Shown here one piece after another: positions 24,127 to 62,972 of a stretch of DNA of 64,000 bases (the stretch's first letter is position 1; each line of letters starts with the position of its first letter). A program made the translations under genes and the position numbers. Source of the DNA: Parabacteroides faecis (GTDB lineage: Bacteria; Bacteroidota; Bacteroidia; Bacteroidales; Tannerellaceae); assembly GCF_014647375.1 (NCBI RefSeq), contig NZ_BMPB01000008.1, positions 1-64,000 of the forward strand. The letters run 5' to 3'. A model generated the notes under the pieces. That model made no database searches, had not been told where the DNA came from, and worked only from the letters and a program-made list of their open reading frames with translations.

Positions 24127-24358
24127 ACCATAATATCTGATTTAATAATAAGGATACGCATCAAATCAACCTTCCGCTGTCTATTGTTTGTTGATGATTT
24201 ATAAAGTATTTATTATCAAATGTTTGGGGGTGAAAAATCACAAATATTTCTCTTGCCGGATGTCTGTCACGTCTAACTGGTTGATATTCTGCAGGTAACA
24301 GGGTGCTCTGTCAAAAGGTTGTCAAAACCCTACATATATAATAAGAATAAATAAAAGA

Positions 24359-24446
24359 GACTATTGTTTTTACTTTAAAATACAACTGTATTTGATTACA
24401 AAAACAATTGTATTCTGTTACGAAAACAATTGTTTTTGTGACCGGA
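24359..24446. repeat. 22-bp tandem repeat array with ACAATTGT palindromes
   Basis: Four 22-bp units begin at 24359 (weak), 24381, 24403 and 24425. Units 2-4 carry ACAACTGT (24382), ACAATTGT (24404) and ACAATTGT (24426), exactly 22 bp apart; the positions halfway between (11 bp on) read TGATTACA, CTGTTACG and TGTGACCG. It is located just beyond the menF stop in the menF-menD gap. Same helical register as the arrays at 47597 and 61627. Confidence 0.6.
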
Positions 24447-24461
24447 AACGTATAGTCGTTT

Positions 24462-25550
24462 TTACAACAAAGCTTTCATCGTTTGTAGTTTATCTTCCGT
24501 TTCCTGCCATTCGTCGTTAAGTTCTGAGGAAGAGAGCAGACCTCCGCCGGCATAAAGCGTAAGTATTTTGTCTTCGATATGCATACAACGCAGGTTGACG
24601 TACAGGTCGGTTCTGCCTTCGGGGTTTAGCCACCCGATAAAGCCGGAATAATAGCGGCGGTCGTAACCTTCATGGTCCAGAATGAACCGGTAAGCATCGG
24701 CTTTTGGTAATCCGCAGACGGCAGGGGTAGGATGGAGCAAATTGAGCAGGTCGCCCAACTTATTGTTTTCACGCAAGGTAAACCTGAAATCGCTTTTCAG
24801 ATGGCATAAAGCGCCGGCACGTGCCGAATACGGACCTTCCATGATCGAGTCGATACCGAGTGAAGTAAGCTGGTCGTGGATATAGGTGGCGACAATCTGC
24901 TGTTCTCTCTTATTCTTCTCGTCCCAATAGGTCGGCAGTTCGCCGTTTTGAAGCGGCTGTGTCCCGGCCAGGGCGACCGTGTTCCACGCTCCTTTTTCTC
25001 CGGAGAGGATGATTTCGGGTGTACCTCCGATCCAAGTCCCGGTCTGTGGCGTATGGCACAGATAGACATACGAACGGGTATATTGTTGGCAGGCTTTGTA
25101 AAAAGCCTTTGCAGGTGAAAAACCGGACAGACGGTTTTGTGTCAGACTGCGTGAAAGGACCAGCTTATCCAGTTTCTTTTCCTGCAAAGGTTTGATGAAG
25201 GAATCGAAACAACGGATATAATCACCTTCCGTTTTCCATTCGGATGGATTTTCAGTTCCATTCGGATGAAACTCCAGATCCATTCGAATGGAATCCATTG
25301 GCAAGACAGCCGGTACCTCTGTTAGATCGCGGCGGATCAATACAATGGGACAATCCGGGGTGACCCGGAAAGGAGCGATCACGAATCCTGTTTGTCCGTT
25401 CAGCTCTTCTATGCTGTATAAAAGGCGGGCAGAACCGGAACTCTGCATGACGAATCGCGGGTGTTTTTCTCCCGGTATACGGTAAATTGCAAAACTCCGG
25501 CCCTGCCTGATCAATGAATCTATTGCTTCGCTTGTTTCTTCTGAATTCAT
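24462..25550 (-). CDS. menF: Isochorismate synthase
   Basis: A 362-residue chorismate-binding-family enzyme converting chorismate to isochorismate, the entry to the menaquinone branch. It is at the short end for the family; the chorismate-binding domain covers most of the protein. Visible: LVLSRSLTQ (about 130), TPEIILSG (about 178), ALAGTQP (about 195), and GPYSARAGALCHL followed by HPTPAVCGLPK (about 285). Its ATG overlaps the stop codon of the HAD-hotdog gene by 4 bp, so the two are translationally coupled. Confidence 0.93.
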   Translation of the reverse strand: MNSEETSEAIDSLIRQGRSFAIYRIPGEKHPRFVMQSSGSARLLYSIEELNGQTGFVIAPFRVTPDCPIVLIRRDLTEVPAVLPMDSIRMDLEFHPNGTENPSEWKTEGDYIRCFDSFIKPLQEKKLDKLVLSRSLTQNRLSGFSPAKAFYKACQQYTRSYVYLCHTPQTGTWIGGTPEIILSGEKGAWNTVALAGTQPLQNGELPTYWDEKNKREQQIVATYIHDQLTSLGIDSIMEGPYSARAGALCHLKSDFRFTLRENNKLGDLLNLLHPTPAVCGLPKADAYRFILDHEGYDRRYYSGFIGWLNPEGRTDLYVNLRCMHIEDKILTLYAGGGLLSSSELNDEWQETEDKLQTMKALL

Positions 25551-47174: not shown

Positions 47175-47582
47175 ATGGCTACAACATTCGATATACAATT
47201 GCCTCATTATAACCGGGGATTCCATCTCGTCACACGGGATATTGTTTCCCGTCTGCCGGAACTACCGGAAAATGGCCTGTTATTCCTGTTTATCAAACAT
47301 ACTTCTGCCGCGCTTACCCTGAATGAGAATGCGGACCCGTCTGTCCGTCACGACTTCAATACCTTTTTCAATAAATTGGTGCCCGACGGAGCTTCTTATT
47401 TTACCCATACGCTGGAAGGTGACGATGATATGTTTGCCCATATCAAGGCTTCGCTATTAGGATCGTCTGTAACTATTCCGATAAAGAACCATCGTCTGAA
47501 CCTGGGAACCTGGCAAGGTATCTATCTTTGTGAATTCCGCGACGGCGGGGACAGCCGCAGGTTGAGTATTACAATTATATAG
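47175..47582 (+). CDS. yjbQ: YjbQ family protein (UPF0047, secondary thiamine-phosphate synthase type)
   Basis: A 135-residue protein of the YjbQ family. Conserved pieces: FIKHTSAALTLNENADPSVRHD (residues about 41-62; HTS and NENAD), LEGDDDMFAHIKASLLGSSV and LGTWQGIYLCEFRD near the C-terminus, which includes family metal-binding or catalytic His and Glu. Overproduced E. coli YjbQ can replace ThiE, hence the name; the natural role is unclear. Length is typical. Confidence 0.92.
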   Translation: MATTFDIQLPHYNRGFHLVTRDIVSRLPELPENGLLFLFIKHTSAALTLNENADPSVRHDFNTFFNKLVPDGASYFTHTLEGDDDMFAHIKASLLGSSVTIPIKNHRLNLGTWQGIYLCEFRDGGDSRRLSITII

Positions 47583-47596
47583 TTAGTTTCCGTAAA

Positions 47597-47689
47597 TTTC
47601 CTAAGTAGGAAACTCCAGTTCCCTGCCTGGGAAATTACAGTTTCCTGCGGAGGGAACTGGAGTTTCCAAACCCGGGAATTACGAGGAAA
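47597..47689. repeat. 11-bp phased array of GGAAA/TTTCC half-sites
   Basis: Nine 5-bp cores start exactly every 11 bp: 47597 TTTCC, 47608 GGAAA, 47619 TTCCC, 47630 GGAAA, 47641 TTTCC, 47652 GGGAA, 47663 TTTCC, 47674 GGGAA, 47685 GGAAA. Orientation alternates through the first eight. Spacers CTCCAG (47613) and CTGGAG (47657), and TTACAG (47635) and CTGTAA (47690), are reverse complements. The result is two interlocked perfect inverted repeats: 47608-47623 with 47652-47667, and 47634-47645 with 47685-47696. The array lies between the 3' ends of yjbQ and the acetyltransferase gene. Confidence 0.85.
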
Positions 47690-47755: not shown

Positions 47756-48349
47756 TCAATTGGAATTTTTTCTGATAACTCTACAAGGATTTCCAACCGC
47801 TATACTGTTGGCGGGTATTGATTGGGTTACCACACTTCCGGCACCGATGACGCAATTATCTCCGATTGTGACGCCCGGAAGGATGATAGCGCCGCCTCCG
47901 ATCCATACATAATTTCCGATAGTGATCGAGAGGGCTTTCGTTTTGAAAAAGAGTTCCCCTGAATTTTCATCCCAGTTTTCTACAAATCTTTCGCTGGCAG
48001 CTACCGGGTGTGTTGCTGTATATAGTTGTACGTTGGGAGCAATTAAAACATGGTTTCCGATCGTAATAATGTTATCATCTAAAAAGGTACAATTCATATT
48101 TATAACGACCTTATCCCCAATAAAGATATGTTTACCGCATTCGCAATGAAAATTGATATCCACGCTGACATGCTTGCCCACTTTCCCGAACATTTCATGC
48201 AAAAGTTCCGTCCTCGCTTCCGTATCGGAAATATCCGTTGCATTAAATTTCGAGAGTAATCTTTTATTCCGGATGATCATATCCAAAACCTCTTTGTCGA
48301 GCCGGTTGCAGTATTCACCGGCTAAAAATTTTTGATAATTGGTTTTCAT
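47756..48349 (-). CDS. Sugar O-acetyltransferase (maltose/galactoside acetyltransferase type)
   Basis: A 197-residue left-handed beta-helix acetyltransferase. An N-terminal Mac domain (about 5-55, FLAGEYCNRLDKEVLDM) precedes hexapeptide repeats (about 70-190), with the CoA-binding turn near WIGGGAIILPGVTIGDNCVIGAGS and the family His in YTATHPV (near 115) as the catalytic base. It acetylates sugars using acetyl-CoA, perhaps as detoxification; the substrate is unknown. Single gene on the minus strand. Confidence 0.9.
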   Translation of the reverse strand: MKTNYQKFLAGEYCNRLDKEVLDMIIRNKRLLSKFNATDISDTEARTELLHEMFGKVGKHVSVDINFHCECGKHIFIGDKVVINMNCTFLDDNIITIGNHVLIAPNVQLYTATHPVAASERFVENWDENSGELFFKTKALSITIGNYVWIGGGAIILPGVTIGDNCVIGAGSVVTQSIPANSIAVGNPCRVIRKNSN

Positions 48350-59698: not shown

Positions 59699-61036
59699 TT
59701 ATTGTAATCTGAAAATAACAGGTACAGTATAAGCGACTCTTATGATTTCACCTGATTTGTTTTTACCCGGAGTCCATTTAGGCATTAATTTAACAACCCG
59801 TAAGGCTTCTGCATCCAGCGAAGGAGAGATGCTGCGTACAACTTTGATGTCTGATATGCTACCATCTTTCTCTACGATAAATGTCAGAGACACACGCCCT
59901 TCTTCTTTCTTTTCAAAAGCCTCTGTCGGATACTTTATGCTTTTTGATAAAAACTGTAACAGCGCTTCCTGTCCACCTGGAAATTCAGGCATCACTTCAC
60001 AAACAGTGTGCACTTTGTCATCATCCGGAGGAAGCGGTGCTTCCGCTATCGTTGCCGGGACAAATTCGGGAGTCGTTGCAGCAACAAGCGCTTTAGGGGC
60101 TTCCGTTGTCCGGCTATTTACAATCCGCGCCATTACATCGATGTTGTTGAATAACAACATGGCAGCAGCCATCGGGATTAATGCCAGATACTTTACTTTT
60201 CCGACATTATTCGTCCTTTTTTTGTTTAACATAGAAATTCTCTTTTTTAATGGTAAGACACTGAAATTATTATATAGATTTGCTATAGCCGTATCTGAAT
60301 GTTCCAATCCTATGAGGTGATACTGATATTTTTTCTTGTTGTATCCGGCATGCATAACTTCCTGATCTGCCAGATATTCCAGGTTTATGCCGATCTCTTT
60401 CTTGAAGAGCCACACAAACGGATTTATCCAGCAAATAACAGAAACCAACTCTCCGAGCAAGACATCGAAAGAGTGAACTTGCCGGACATGGGCCGCTTCA
60501 TGCTGGAGTATTTCTCCCAATATGAGCTCATTCTGTAGTTTCGCAGGGATGAAGATCCATCGGAAAAAAGAATAAGGTTCTTCCGTTTCCGGGATCAGAT
60601 ATACCTTAATTCCGTCGATCATACGCTTTTTACTCCGCCGATGTGTTACGAATAAATTTATCATTTCAGCTATGCACCGGATGGTTAAGATCAGCACTCC
60701 GGACAGATAGATGATGATAAAGCCGTTCATGCCTGCTTTTCCCCAATCCATATTCGCTTCATTGGCCGTTTTGTCCATACTTGCGGCAGCCTCGACAGGT
60801 ATCTCCTTGGGTAAGATCGTTGAATAATAGGAAATCATTTCCGATATGGTCGGACGTGTTGACAGCCAATTACTGATATCAGGCAATTGATATAGAAAAG
60901 CGATCAGCAACATGCCCAATAACGTTATCCGTCTCAGTCCGAAAAATGTATCATTACGGAATAACAGGCGGTAACTTATATAAAGTAAAGCCAACGCCAG
61001 GTTTACTTTGATGAAATAGATAAATAGCGGCGTCAT
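59699..61036 (-). CDS. BlaR1-type M56 metallopeptidase fused to a TonB C-terminal domain
   Basis: A 445-residue inner-membrane protein. Helices at about 5-22, 36-52, 103-122, 190-212 and 283-300 frame an M56 peptidase with the zinc motif HEAAH (near 180). After the last helix, a periplasmic linker (about 300-350) leads to a TonB C-terminal domain (about 355-445: GRVSLTFIVEKDGSISDIKV, LDAEALRVVKLMPKWTPG). M56 proteins cleave BlaI-type repressors; the TonB part normally contacts outer-membrane receptors. It starts 17 bp after blaI. Confidence 0.9.
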   Translation of the reverse strand: MTPLFIYFIKVNLALALLYISYRLLFRNDTFFGLRRITLLGMLLIAFLYQLPDISNWLSTRPTISEMISYYSTILPKEIPVEAAASMDKTANEANMDWGKAGMNGFIIIYLSGVLILTIRCIAEMINLFVTHRRSKKRMIDGIKVYLIPETEEPYSFFRWIFIPAKLQNELILGEILQHEAAHVRQVHSFDVLLGELVSVICWINPFVWLFKKEIGINLEYLADQEVMHAGYNKKKYQYHLIGLEHSDTAIANLYNNFSVLPLKKRISMLNKKRTNNVGKVKYLALIPMAAAMLLFNNIDVMARIVNSRTTEAPKALVAATTPEFVPATIAEAPLPPDDDKVHTVCEVMPEFPGGQEALLQFLSKSIKYPTEAFEKKEEGRVSLTFIVEKDGSISDIKVVRSISPSLDAEALRVVKLMPKWTPGKNKSGEIIRVAYTVPVIFRLQ

Positions 61037-61053
61037 AGCAGAGCGTTTTTTAA

Positions 61054-61413
61054 TTATTCTTCATTTTCAATCAGGTTCATCAAATCCTGCAGATCGCTTT
61101 TAGATAACTTCCGGTCTTTTACAAAAAACGTAACCATTTCTTTGTAAGAGCCCGTAAAGTAGTCCCTGACAACATTCGACATGAAAGTCCGCTTGTAGTC
61201 TGCCTCTTTGATCAAAGGTGAGAATTCGGTAATTGTTCCGTACTTCTTCGGCGAGACATATTTTTTACGTTCCAGGTTGCGCACAACGGATGCGACACTG
61301 GTATAAGGAGGACGGGGTTCCTGCATTTCATTCAGGATATCCCGGATAAAGCAAGGACCTAACTTCCATATATACAACATGATCTCTTCTTCTTGTGCTG
61401 TCAATCGTTCCAT
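61054..61413 (-). CDS. blaI: BlaI/MecI/CopY family repressor
   Basis: A 119-residue winged-helix repressor: LTAQEEEIMLYIWKLGP at the start, recognition-helix region YTSVASVVRNLERKKYVSPKKYG (about 37-59), and a C-terminal dimerisation part that BlaR1-like peptidases cleave. It is paired with blaR1-tonB and preceded by a palindrome over its own promoter, so it likely represses its own operon. Its target need not be the beta-lactamase at 50689, which has a different regulator next to it. Confidence 0.92.
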   Translation of the reverse strand: MERLTAQEEEIMLYIWKLGPCFIRDILNEMQEPRPPYTSVASVVRNLERKKYVSPKKYGTITEFSPLIKEADYKRTFMSNVVRDYFTGSYKEMVTFFVKDRKLSKSDLQDLMNLIENEE

Positions 61414-61453
61414 CTGTCTATAATTTTCTGATTAATAGTCTACTATTTTTTAG

Positions 61454-61484
61454 CAAATCTACTAATATTTAGTAGATATACAAC
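61454..61484 (-). promoter_or_regulatory. blaI promoter with overlapping palindromic operator
   Basis: On the minus strand, GTTG (61481-61484), 19 bp, TAGATTTG (61454-61461). The perfect palindrome ATCTACTAA-N3-TTAGTAGAT (61457-61477) covers the space between and part of the -7 box. A second, weaker palindrome AATAGT-CT-ACTATT sits at 61434-61447. This is where a dimeric BlaI repressor would block transcription. Confidence 0.7.
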
Positions 61485-61626
61485 CGGAAGCCTTGTAAAT
61501 ATTGTTAAAGGGGACCAAATACTATTGTGTCATTGCAGGGGTAATACTACTGCAAATGTCGGATGCTTGCTAGTTGCCTATGTAATACCTATATAAAAGT
61601 ACTTTTTTCATGTTACTGACAACTGG

Positions 61627-61708
61627 TGCCATTACTATGGCAAAAGAGTGCCACAGGCATGGCACAGTAATGCCACTAGCTTGGCACTCTTCTGCCAACG
61701 TTGTGGCA
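61627..61708. repeat. 11-bp phased array of alternating TGCCA/TGGCA half-sites
   Basis: Eight 5-bp cores start exactly 11 bp apart: TGCCA at 61627, 61649, 61671 and 61693; TGGCA at 61638, 61660, 61682 and 61704. Spacers are 6 bp; spacer AAAGAG (61643) is nearly complementary to CTCTTC (61687), and TTACTA (61632) to CAGTAA (61665). It lies about 90 bp upstream of the nspC -7 box and 140 bp from the blaI promoter. The arrangement is too regular to be chance. Confidence 0.9.
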
Positions 61709-61795
61709 GAGGGTTTACTCTCTTATCTGTATTAAGATTTGTAGCTGACGTTATCTTCTTCCGCTTGGTATACTGGGATATTCTGAATATAACAT

Positions 61796-61803
61796 TATCT
61801 TTG
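61796..61803 (+). promoter_or_regulatory. -7 box for nspC
   Basis: TATCTTTG, 29 bp upstream of the ATG. A weak CTGG lies 19 bp farther upstream. Confidence 0.5.
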
Positions 61804-61832
61804 TAGCTTATTTAATTGAATAAAGAAACTAA

Positions 61833-62972
61833 ATGATCGATTTCAACGTAATACCATCTCCTTGTTATGTGATGGAAGAGAAACTGCTTCGTAATAACCT
61901 GGCACTTATTAAAAGTGTAAAAGAGCGGGCAGGAGTGAATATAATTCTTGCATTCAAGGCATTCGCTTTGTGGAAATCTTTTCCGATCGTTCGTGAGTAT
62001 ATACCGTATTCAACGGCCAGTTCGAAGTTTGAAGCACAGTTGGCTTTTGAAGAAATGGGAAGTCCGGCTCATACGTATTCCCCGGCTTATACGGAAGCTG
62101 ATTTTCCTGCCATATTGAAATATAGCAGTCATATAACTTTCAATTCGTTATCTCAGTTTGAGCGTTTTTATCCGATGGTAAAAGCGGATGGGAACCGGGT
62201 CTCATGCGGTTTGCGCATCAATCCGGAATATTCGGATGTGGAAACCGAGTTATACAATCCTTGCGCACCGGGTTCAAGGATGGGAGTTATTTCAGACCTG
62301 TTGGGCGACAAGTTACCGGAAGGAGTAGAAGGACTCCATTTTCATACGCTTTGCGAATCCTCTTCGTATGATCTGGAAAAAACATTGGGGGAAGTGGAAA
62401 AGCGTTTCGGACGTTTCCTTCCTCATATCAAATGGTTGAATATGGGAGGCGGACATCTGATGACACGAAAAGGATATGACACGGAACACCTGATATCTTT
62501 ACTTCAGTCATTCAAGGCTAAATACCCTAATTTAGAAATCATTATGGAACCGGGAAGTGCTTTTGCCTGGCAAACAGGCTTCCTGTTGACCACAGTTGTG
62601 GATATCGTGGAGAACCACGGTATAAAGACTGCTATAATCGATGCGTCGTTTACCTGCCACATGCCGGATTGCCTGGAAATGCCGTATAAGCCGGCCATCC
62701 GTAATGCCACTGACCGGATAGAAGGAAAACCGACTTACCGTATCGGTGGAAACAGTTGCCTGAGCGGTGATTATATGGGAGACTGGTCGTTTGATGAACC
62801 GTTGAAAATAGGAGATAAGATTATCTTTGAAGATATGATCCATTATACAATCGTAAAAACGTCCATGTTCAACGGAATACCACATCCGTCATTGGCTCTG
62901 TGGAGTAAGGATGACAAACTGGTTCTATACCGGACATTCGGCTACGAAGATTATAAAGGGAGAAATGGTTAA
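61833..62972 (+). CDS. nspC: Carboxynorspermidine/carboxyspermidine decarboxylase
   Basis: A 379-residue PLP enzyme of the alanine-racemase fold that makes spermidine (or norspermidine) by decarboxylating carboxyspermidine; gut Bacteroidales use this route. The PLP lysine is in LAFKAFALW (Lys near 42), with HTLCESS (near 173), a glycine-rich phosphate loop MGGGHL (near 210), EPGSAFAWQTG (near 236) and GNSCLSGDYMGDW (near 308), which holds the active-site Cys and Asp. Length is typical. Single gene next to ftsY. Confidence 0.94.
   Translation: MIDFNVIPSPCYVMEEKLLRNNLALIKSVKERAGVNIILAFKAFALWKSFPIVREYIPYSTASSKFEAQLAFEEMGSPAHTYSPAYTEADFPAILKYSSHITFNSLSQFERFYPMVKADGNRVSCGLRINPEYSDVETELYNPCAPGSRMGVISDLLGDKLPEGVEGLHFHTLCESSSYDLEKTLGEVEKRFGRFLPHIKWLNMGGGHLMTRKGYDTEHLISLLQSFKAKYPNLEIIMEPGSAFAWQTGFLLTTVVDIVENHGIKTAIIDASFTCHMPDCLEMPYKPAIRNATDRIEGKPTYRIGGNSCLSGDYMGDWSFDEPLKIGDKIIFEDMIHYTIVKTSMFNGIPHPSLALWSKDDKLVLYRTFGYEDYKGRNG

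Follow-up and report, generated by a model that had tools for sequence, protein, structure and literature searches.

Dispersed short palindromic repeats, mostly extragenic and with each flavour beside a gene of its own, are described for the REPIN-RAYT system in the portion of the account drawn on here (PMC3116915). The BrickBuilt elements of Porphyromonas gingivalis are built, in the excerpts used, on the fixed consensus AGAYCATARTATCCTCTCRTRTG of 23 nt and carry terminal inverted repeats (PMC4596501). The subject of the present analysis is an array of alternating TGCCA and TGGCA half-sites at positions 61627-61708 of a 64,000-nucleotide stretch of the Parabacteroides faecis genome, referred to below as the window. 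The array is probably a dispersed binding site of DUF6078 (PF19555), a family of putative sequence-specific double-stranded DNA-binding proteins in which each paralogue would have its own word (the half-site sequence). The REPIN-RAYT system is the closest working analogy. Like BrickBuilt, a miniature inverted-repeat transposable element (MITE) or minisatellite, the arrays consist of tandem units of ~22-23 nt between genes of a Bacteroidales genome, but, measured against those same excerpts, they show neither a fixed 23-nt consensus nor terminal inverted repeats, and BrickBuilt was rejected because sequence and design differ. Nor was a conserved body or terminal inverted repeat of the MITE type found, arrays of the same genome aligning over the array only and strong base preference ending ~3 bp outside it.

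Small helix-turn-helix (HTH) proteins acting on dyad operators are found among the lambda-repressor/XRE-type proteins, including restriction-modification C proteins and PrgX. DUF6078 resembles these weakly in sequence and fold over residues ~70-140, below accepted cut-offs, but its N-terminal part is Cys-rich and its arrays are found 3' of the gene and across the genome. Mycobacteriophage stoperators and plasmid parC/ParR iterons likewise offer one small protein several sites, dispersed or phased. Unlike these phage and plasmid elements, the four-half-site TGCCA pattern had 0 matches in IMG/VR viral contigs, and a phage origin was rejected on this ground.

Structure of the window array

Re-reading of 61627-61708 confirmed eight half-sites at 11-bp steps without slip, the orientation flipping each time. 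The cores, alternately TGCCA and TGGCA, begin at 61627, 61638, 61649, 61660, 61671, 61682, 61693 and 61704, so that the sequence can be written as 4x TGCCA-N6-TGGCA-N6. The repeating unit is best read as a 22-bp dyad in four abutting copies. Because the family shows a strong base preference over the 3 bp outside the end half-sites, the element is taken as 61624-61711, with the following parts.

61624..61711, unstranded: TGCCA-family array of eight alternating 11-bp units, best read as four abutting 22-bp dyads; limits based on the 3-bp edge preference in the family
61624-61645, 61646-61667, 61668-61689 and 61690-61711, unstranded: dyads 1-4
61632..61637, unstranded: inner (A-type) 6-bp spacer of dyad 1, TTACTA
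61654-61659, 61676-61681 and 61698-61703, unstranded: A spacers of dyads 2-4
61643..61648, unstranded: junction (B-type) 6-bp spacer between dyads 1 and 2
61665-61670 and 61687-61692, unstranded: remaining B spacers

In a scan for alternating 11-bp units that is free of any given word, the array scores 16 whereas the maxima of 20 whole-window shuffles were 10-12, so the phasing pointed out in an earlier, sequence-only reading is stronger than in any of the shuffled sequences. With steps of 8, 9, 10, 12, 13 or 14 bp the best score within 61001-62300 was 7-10 and never fell on the array. Two details of that reading hold in part: the spacer pairs that it took for reverse complements match at 5/6 positions (TTACTA/CAGTAA and AAAGAG/CTCTTC) and not fully, and its placing of all cores on one face of the helix is approximate, since 11 bp differs from the ~10.5-bp turn of relaxed DNA and the register is not exact across seven steps.

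DUF6078 and the arrays behind its genes

The P. faecis genome (G000; 6.66 Mb, 33 contigs) contains TGCCAN6TGGCAN6TGCCA in 33 forward and 33 reverse matches at 14 loci, the reversed control giving 0. Within the genus the pattern occurs in 7/39 genomes, in one of them as a single match, and a scan of species-representative GTDB genomes returned at least 115 stretches that carry it. The 80 titles listed are nearly all Bacteroides, Parabacteroides, Tannerellaceae, Bacteroidaceae or Mediterranea, and one is labelled Acidimicrobiales. The four-half-site pattern was found in 3/393 genomes spread over the order, all three in the family to which P. faecis belongs.

Clustering covered the 630 open reading frames (ORFs) that lie no more than 1.5 kb from a TGCCA array. 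The largest cluster (56 ORFs) consists of reading frames that run through the arrays. The second comprises a single protein family, present at 15 loci of which some are orthologous, with the array 3' of the gene in 15/15, 4-77 bp past its stop codon; the third, from 11 loci, holds mostly long proteins at scattered distances from the array. The second cluster is DUF6078: four of four proteins match PF19555 (best E 4e-48; 132-164 bits vs a gathering cut-off of 27), as do 37/37 aligned members. The family is present in 30/39 genus genomes (77 matches), and the P. faecis TGCCA-type gene, G000:C23:6272-6703, is followed by a TGCCA array.

Downstream DNA was examined for 50 of the 77 matches. An alternating 11-bp array (score at least 13) lies within 220 bp downstream of 41/50 DUF6078 genes vs 4/87 unselected genes of the genus (Fisher p 1.7e-21, the genes not all being independent), and upstream of the same genes 0/50 regions reach score 13. 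Once redundancy is removed the array is retained in 30/37 genes at 80% identity, 16/21 at 50% and 8/10 at 40%. In an order-wide sample DUF6078 was detected in 6/198 genomes, four of the six outside the genus, and among control genomes in 1/14 (Bacteroides ihuae); DUF6078 genes of other bacterial families have a downstream array in 3/7 cases (2/2, 1/3 and 0/2 by family).

The AlphaFold2 model of DUF6078 has a predicted local distance difference test score (pLDDT) of 92.3, with helices at 83-96, 99-106 and 114-126. The Xre-like-HTH family PF20432 gives a weak match in 10/37 members (best E 0.0021), scoring 14-18 bits in four listed proteins, below the curated cut-off of 25.8. No catalytic family in Pfam, NCBIfam, PHROGs or PADLOC matched DUF6078, and solved structures searched by its sequence yielded nothing below E 0.28. 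A role in defence was rejected, as four DUF6078 proteins had no PADLOC match.

Private words of the paralogues

The words found behind DUF6078 paralogues include TGCCA, GTTTCA, GTTTCC, TTTTC, AGTAC, TTGCA, TCCCA, TCTCAT and TTTACA. Array word tracks protein sequence (Mantel r 0.497, 0/5000 permutations; 30 genes below 80% identity, picked from those with an array). In the alignment, with words assigned by eye, RTYYRVRKG is paired with TGCCA, RNPYFERRRG with AGTAC, RKNYYLKRKG with GTTTCC and RTHFYRLWRK with GTTTCA. TGCCA arrays occur in six of the 10 genomes with a TGCCA-type gene vs one of the 29 without (Fisher 4e-4), the tier of 10 including one genome with a truncated gene and having been drawn by identity after the table was viewed. 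In G004 the TGCCA-type gene (L267) is without its N-terminal part, the match beginning at residue 46-47, and the genome keeps 24 forward TGCCA matches.

A second word shows a similar dispersal. The pattern GTTTCN8GAAACN4GTTTC is found in 25/39 genus genomes (control 0 in all 39), with up to 57 forward matches (G009) and 20 in P. faecis, where one such array lies directly behind a GTTTCA-type DUF6078 gene. The 30 genomes with DUF6078 have higher counts than the nine without it (Mann-Whitney p 0.017), although the latter still show up to 2 forward matches. In IMG/VR the four-half-site GTTTC pattern matched 4 viral contigs, each holding two dyads, that looked by eye to be unrelated. The GTTTC arrays behind DUF6078 genes at L270 (G019), L302 and L304 seemingly have, by eye, a 21-bp rather than a 22-bp period.

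The two exact patterns together place at least 32 array loci in the P. faecis genome (14 TGCCA and 18 GTTTC). When the word-free scan was run for arrays other than TGCCA, 78 kb of P. faecis loci yielded 0, 893 kb of GTDB loci yielded 3 and 118 kb of nspC loci yielded 5. The four arrays in the window would have suggested hundreds per genome; these few non-TGCCA arrays do not bear that out, and the estimate is set at dozens per genome. A marker of chromosome macrodomains was rejected, the arrays being spread, by eye, round the one-contig genome G004.

Position and anatomy of the arrays

With ORFs of at least 110 aa, 143 TGCCA arrays were placed as 71 tandem, 49 convergent, 16 divergent, 6 inside long ORFs and 1 at an edge, and 57/71 tandem arrays are nearer the upstream stop codon than the downstream start. 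The ORF callers are crude: at a looser setting, at least 70 aa, 49/140 arrays fell inside ORFs, many of these short, and 91/140 outside (47 tandem, 38 convergent, 6 divergent), with a median of 37 bp from array to facing stop codon (123 distances). The position preference of 19 GTTTC arrays is weaker, with 10 tandem, 7 divergent and 2 convergent and a median stop distance of 56 bp.

The commonest array length is eight half-sites (36/92 arrays parsed), and 50/92 have an even number. The element is read as 22-bp dyads set edge to edge, of which the alternation is the outward appearance, a tendency and not a rule since odd-numbered arrays exist. The A spacers, within TGCCA..TGGCA, and the B spacers, between dyads, exclude different bases. 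The oriented unit is mostly (T/C)(T/C)(T/G/C)-TGCCA-(A/C/T)-N-(G/A/C), with G first after TGCCA in 9/418 units and T third in 19/418, and the dyad consensus here is YTK-TGCCA-HNVBND-TGGCA-MAR. In the 71 tandem arrays, read in the sense orientation, strong preference at the edges is confined to the 3 bases outside the outer half-sites, with weaker skews farther out.

Probable recognition as duplex DNA

It is probably as duplex DNA that the arrays are recognised. In the same 71 arrays, in gene orientation, the base composition of the spacers comes close to that of their reverse complement, the largest strand difference being at A-spacer position 2 (T 0.31 vs 0.17), and this near symmetry of the strands suggests a duplex target. 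Among half-site variants the wobble-keeping TGTCA counts 16 vs 23 for TGACA. The hairpins envisaged in the earlier reading find no support in this near symmetry of spacers and variants. An RNA element, that is, a string of hairpins in the 3' untranslated region acting as transcript (terminator, stabiliser or small-RNA sponge), would account for the complementarity of adjacent half-sites, for the place of the arrays 3' of genes at a median of 37 bp past stops, and for an excess of complementarity between next-nearest loops, to be considered below. It is nonetheless very unlikely: besides the spacer symmetry, TGTCA is not favoured over TGACA, and the 11-bp phase is retained through gain and loss of units. 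Rfam 15 had nothing at the arrays in 10 loci scanned (one cobalamin riboswitch lies elsewhere in them), and its best match at the window array, E 0.74, is far below the gathering score. RNA structure was rejected on strand symmetry and Rfam together.

A T run of the intrinsic-terminator kind does not directly follow the last half-site in the 71 tandem arrays in sense orientation. The first base past it is A in 0.54, C in 0.27, G in 0.11 and T in 0.08, positions 2-3 are mostly A, and T reaches 0.42-0.44 only at positions 6-7.

The base after TGGCA is common to the loci of one genome and differs by species (chi2 p 1.5e-32, 14 groups), being A in 97% in B. oleiciplenus and C in 86% in B. faecis and 67% in G004. 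Such a species-wide spacer flavour is the signature expected of a trans-acting factor, a single protein whose fine specificity varies from species to species; recent shared ancestry of the copies might contribute as well.

Evolution and possible mobility of the arrays

In 19 orthologous array pairs, placed in best register and with some pairs sharing a member, half-sites changed at 17/750 positions, a count biased low because the arrays were found by exact pattern, and spacers at 171/786. The 300-bp flanks of these pairs changed at 538/10542 and the four-fold degenerate sites of flanking genes at 937/6220. Where arrays are orthologous, the outcome is the opposite of random decay, half-sites and phase being kept while spacers change, with the same reservation about exact-pattern discovery. 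The sister-species pair L200/L218 illustrates this in one gap, with spacers changed at 17/36 and half-sites at 0/35. Arrays lengthen and shorten in 22-bp units with the 11-bp phase retained, and identical repeated dyads in L011 (2986-3111), L012 (3026-3107) and L172 (1496-1577) are evidence of recent 22-bp tandem duplication. Hypermutation of spacers was rejected, their overall rate being 1.4-fold the four-fold-site rate, near neutral. Single pairs vary widely: spacer change far exceeds the four-fold rate in L181/L183 (28/54 vs 0.10), L200/L218 (17/36 vs 0.09) and L167/L190 (10/54 vs 0.02), and spacers are unchanged, 0/42 each, in L173/L184 and L178/L185.

Two P. faecis loci were compared with relatives. 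At L010 both flanks are present in 9/9 relatives with a gap of at most 93 bp vs 166-210 bp, and five of these gaps, read base by base, contain no array. At L018 both flanks are present in 6/9 relatives, and there is no array in the five of these six that were read (G038, G013, G009, G012 and G004; the sixth is G015) nor in G005. The simplest reading is that arrays were gained at L010 and L018 in the P. faecis lineage; loss in the relatives is possible. The extra stretch at both loci includes sequence beyond the array. No target-site duplication was noticed in the alignments with array-less relatives, in which divergence blurs the boundaries. At L199/L213 and L202/L211, the arrays lie at synteny breaks, with one homologous flank between G004 and G005, as if they were recombination points.

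Absence from relatives at these two loci, together with the patchy spread over 7/39 genus genomes, would suit a mobile repeat of the REPIN/RAYT kind, in which DUF6078 would be the mobilising enzyme or an obligate accessory and each paralogue would move its own word. As the cited portion presents it (PMC3116915), the RAYT-REPIN pattern sets a private repeat next to each gene, and the arrays share with it both dispersal and the pairing of word and gene (41/50 vs 4/87; Mantel r 0.497). The likeness stops at the protein and the repeat: DUF6078 proteins have no match to PF01797, the Y1 tyrosine transposase that is the cognate protein of the REP repeats in that system, and 11-bp-phased dyads with free spacers differ from the near-fixed REPIN sequence. 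The transposase itself occurs in 9/39 genomes and not in the array-rich G004, G005 and G013, and a Y1/RAYT link was rejected by this co-occurrence across the 39 genomes. Because the defining Y1 domain is absent and the enzyme does not co-occur, the system is not filed as REPIN-RAYT. Further, DUF6078 matched no catalytic family, different arrays of one genome align across the array alone, so that no fixed element is seen moving, no duplicated target was noticed, and absence from relatives could also be loss. A mobile repeat is on these grounds rather unlikely.

A probable binding site for DUF6078

The association of gene, array and word thus favours DUF6078 as the protein that reads the arrays. 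It would bind its own dyads as a dimer through a C-terminal HTH, the N-terminal part being Cys-rich, and since there are often about four abutting 22-bp dyads, a row of dimers could load side by side. Most copies lie shortly after a stop codon, the protein's own gene being among those so followed, and their places differ between species. A bound row at gene 3' ends might act as a roadblock or insulator against read-through and convergent transcription or, alternatively, as a chromosome-organising site, both conjectures. The sequence-only reading had offered a nucleoid-protein array and a self-propagating intergenic repeat as options, each right in part: the family is dispersed and DUF6078 is a strong candidate protein.

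Several observations weigh against recognition by DUF6078 as outlined. Nine of the 50 DUF6078 genes have no detected array, four genomes with a TGCCA-type gene lack any exact TGCCA array, and P. faecis has GTTTCC arrays with no gene showing that word. The window array itself is an exception, lying between divergent genes and away from 3' ends. The way in which the arrays spread is unexplained, as is the reverse complementarity of next-nearest A spacers, of which 9/64 pairs match at 5 or more positions vs 1.6 expected. For that count 66 arrays were grouped coarsely into 33 clusters, one of them holding 23, and 3 more were dropped for tandem duplicates; far harder clustering (10 clusters) gave no excess complementarity of A spacers. 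In the 64 A-spacer pairs, from 30 arrays, nearest A spacers are directly similar.

The window locus

The array lies between the divergent start codons of two genes.

61054..61413, minus strand: BlaI/MecI/CopY-like repressor gene, all NCBIfam matches below curated cut-offs; start 213 bp from the array
61833..62972, plus strand: nspC, carboxynorspermidine decarboxylase (TIGR01047, 513 bits vs cut-off 409); start 124 bp from the array

This placement would suit the multi-dimer operator for nspC or blaI that the earlier reading offered as an option. The array is absent from the nspC gap in 14/14 nearest orthologues read (L138-L151), among them L142, L145 and L146, which keep blaI beside nspC, and four whose protein is 95-96% identical. 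With this absence and 13 other TGCCA array loci in the same genome, the operator fails as a conserved role, and a local operator of either gene is extremely improbable as the explanation of the window array; a species-specific side effect on nspC is possible. Upstream of nspC at L143 (G004), L147 (G024) and L149 (G005) there is an alternating 11-bp array of GTGTT/AACAC.

Three more arrays of alternating 11-bp units, each with another word, came to light elsewhere in the window in the word-free scan.

47583..47681, unstranded: array built in the same way on a GTTTCC-like word, flanked by the 3' ends of convergent ORFs 47175-47582 (plus strand) and 47756-48349 (minus strand)
24353..24454, unstranded: array built in the same way on a ACAATTGT-like word; ORF 24462-25550 (minus strand) has its stop codon ~8 bp away
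25231..25307, unstranded: array built in the same way on a TTCCATTCGGATGGA-like word, located within the coding sequence of the same ORF 24462-25550 (minus strand)

A proposed gene-plus-repeat class

The arrays are a real and widespread repeat class with a strong protein partner, and apparently an undescribed one: a search of the open-licence PubMed Central literature found no mention of DUF6078 and, among the matches listed, no description of such arrays. We lean towards regarding DUF6078 and its arrays as a new gene-plus-repeat class, in which diversifying small HTH proteins would each have a private 22-bp word, an array directly behind their own gene and copies behind many other genes. Bacteroidales chromosomes would then bear several mutually orthogonal layers of gene-end sites loaded with protein, spread without a known transposase.

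The proposal gives the uncharacterised family DUF6078 a testable role and explains a conspicuous repeat class of common gut bacteria. If the binding is true, natural pairs of DUF6078 and word would be DNA-binding modules orthogonal to one another, and the code of their specificity could be read. The work raises the questions of how the places of arrays come to differ between species without a transposase, and why private sites for a protein mark the 3' ends of many genes on a chromosome.
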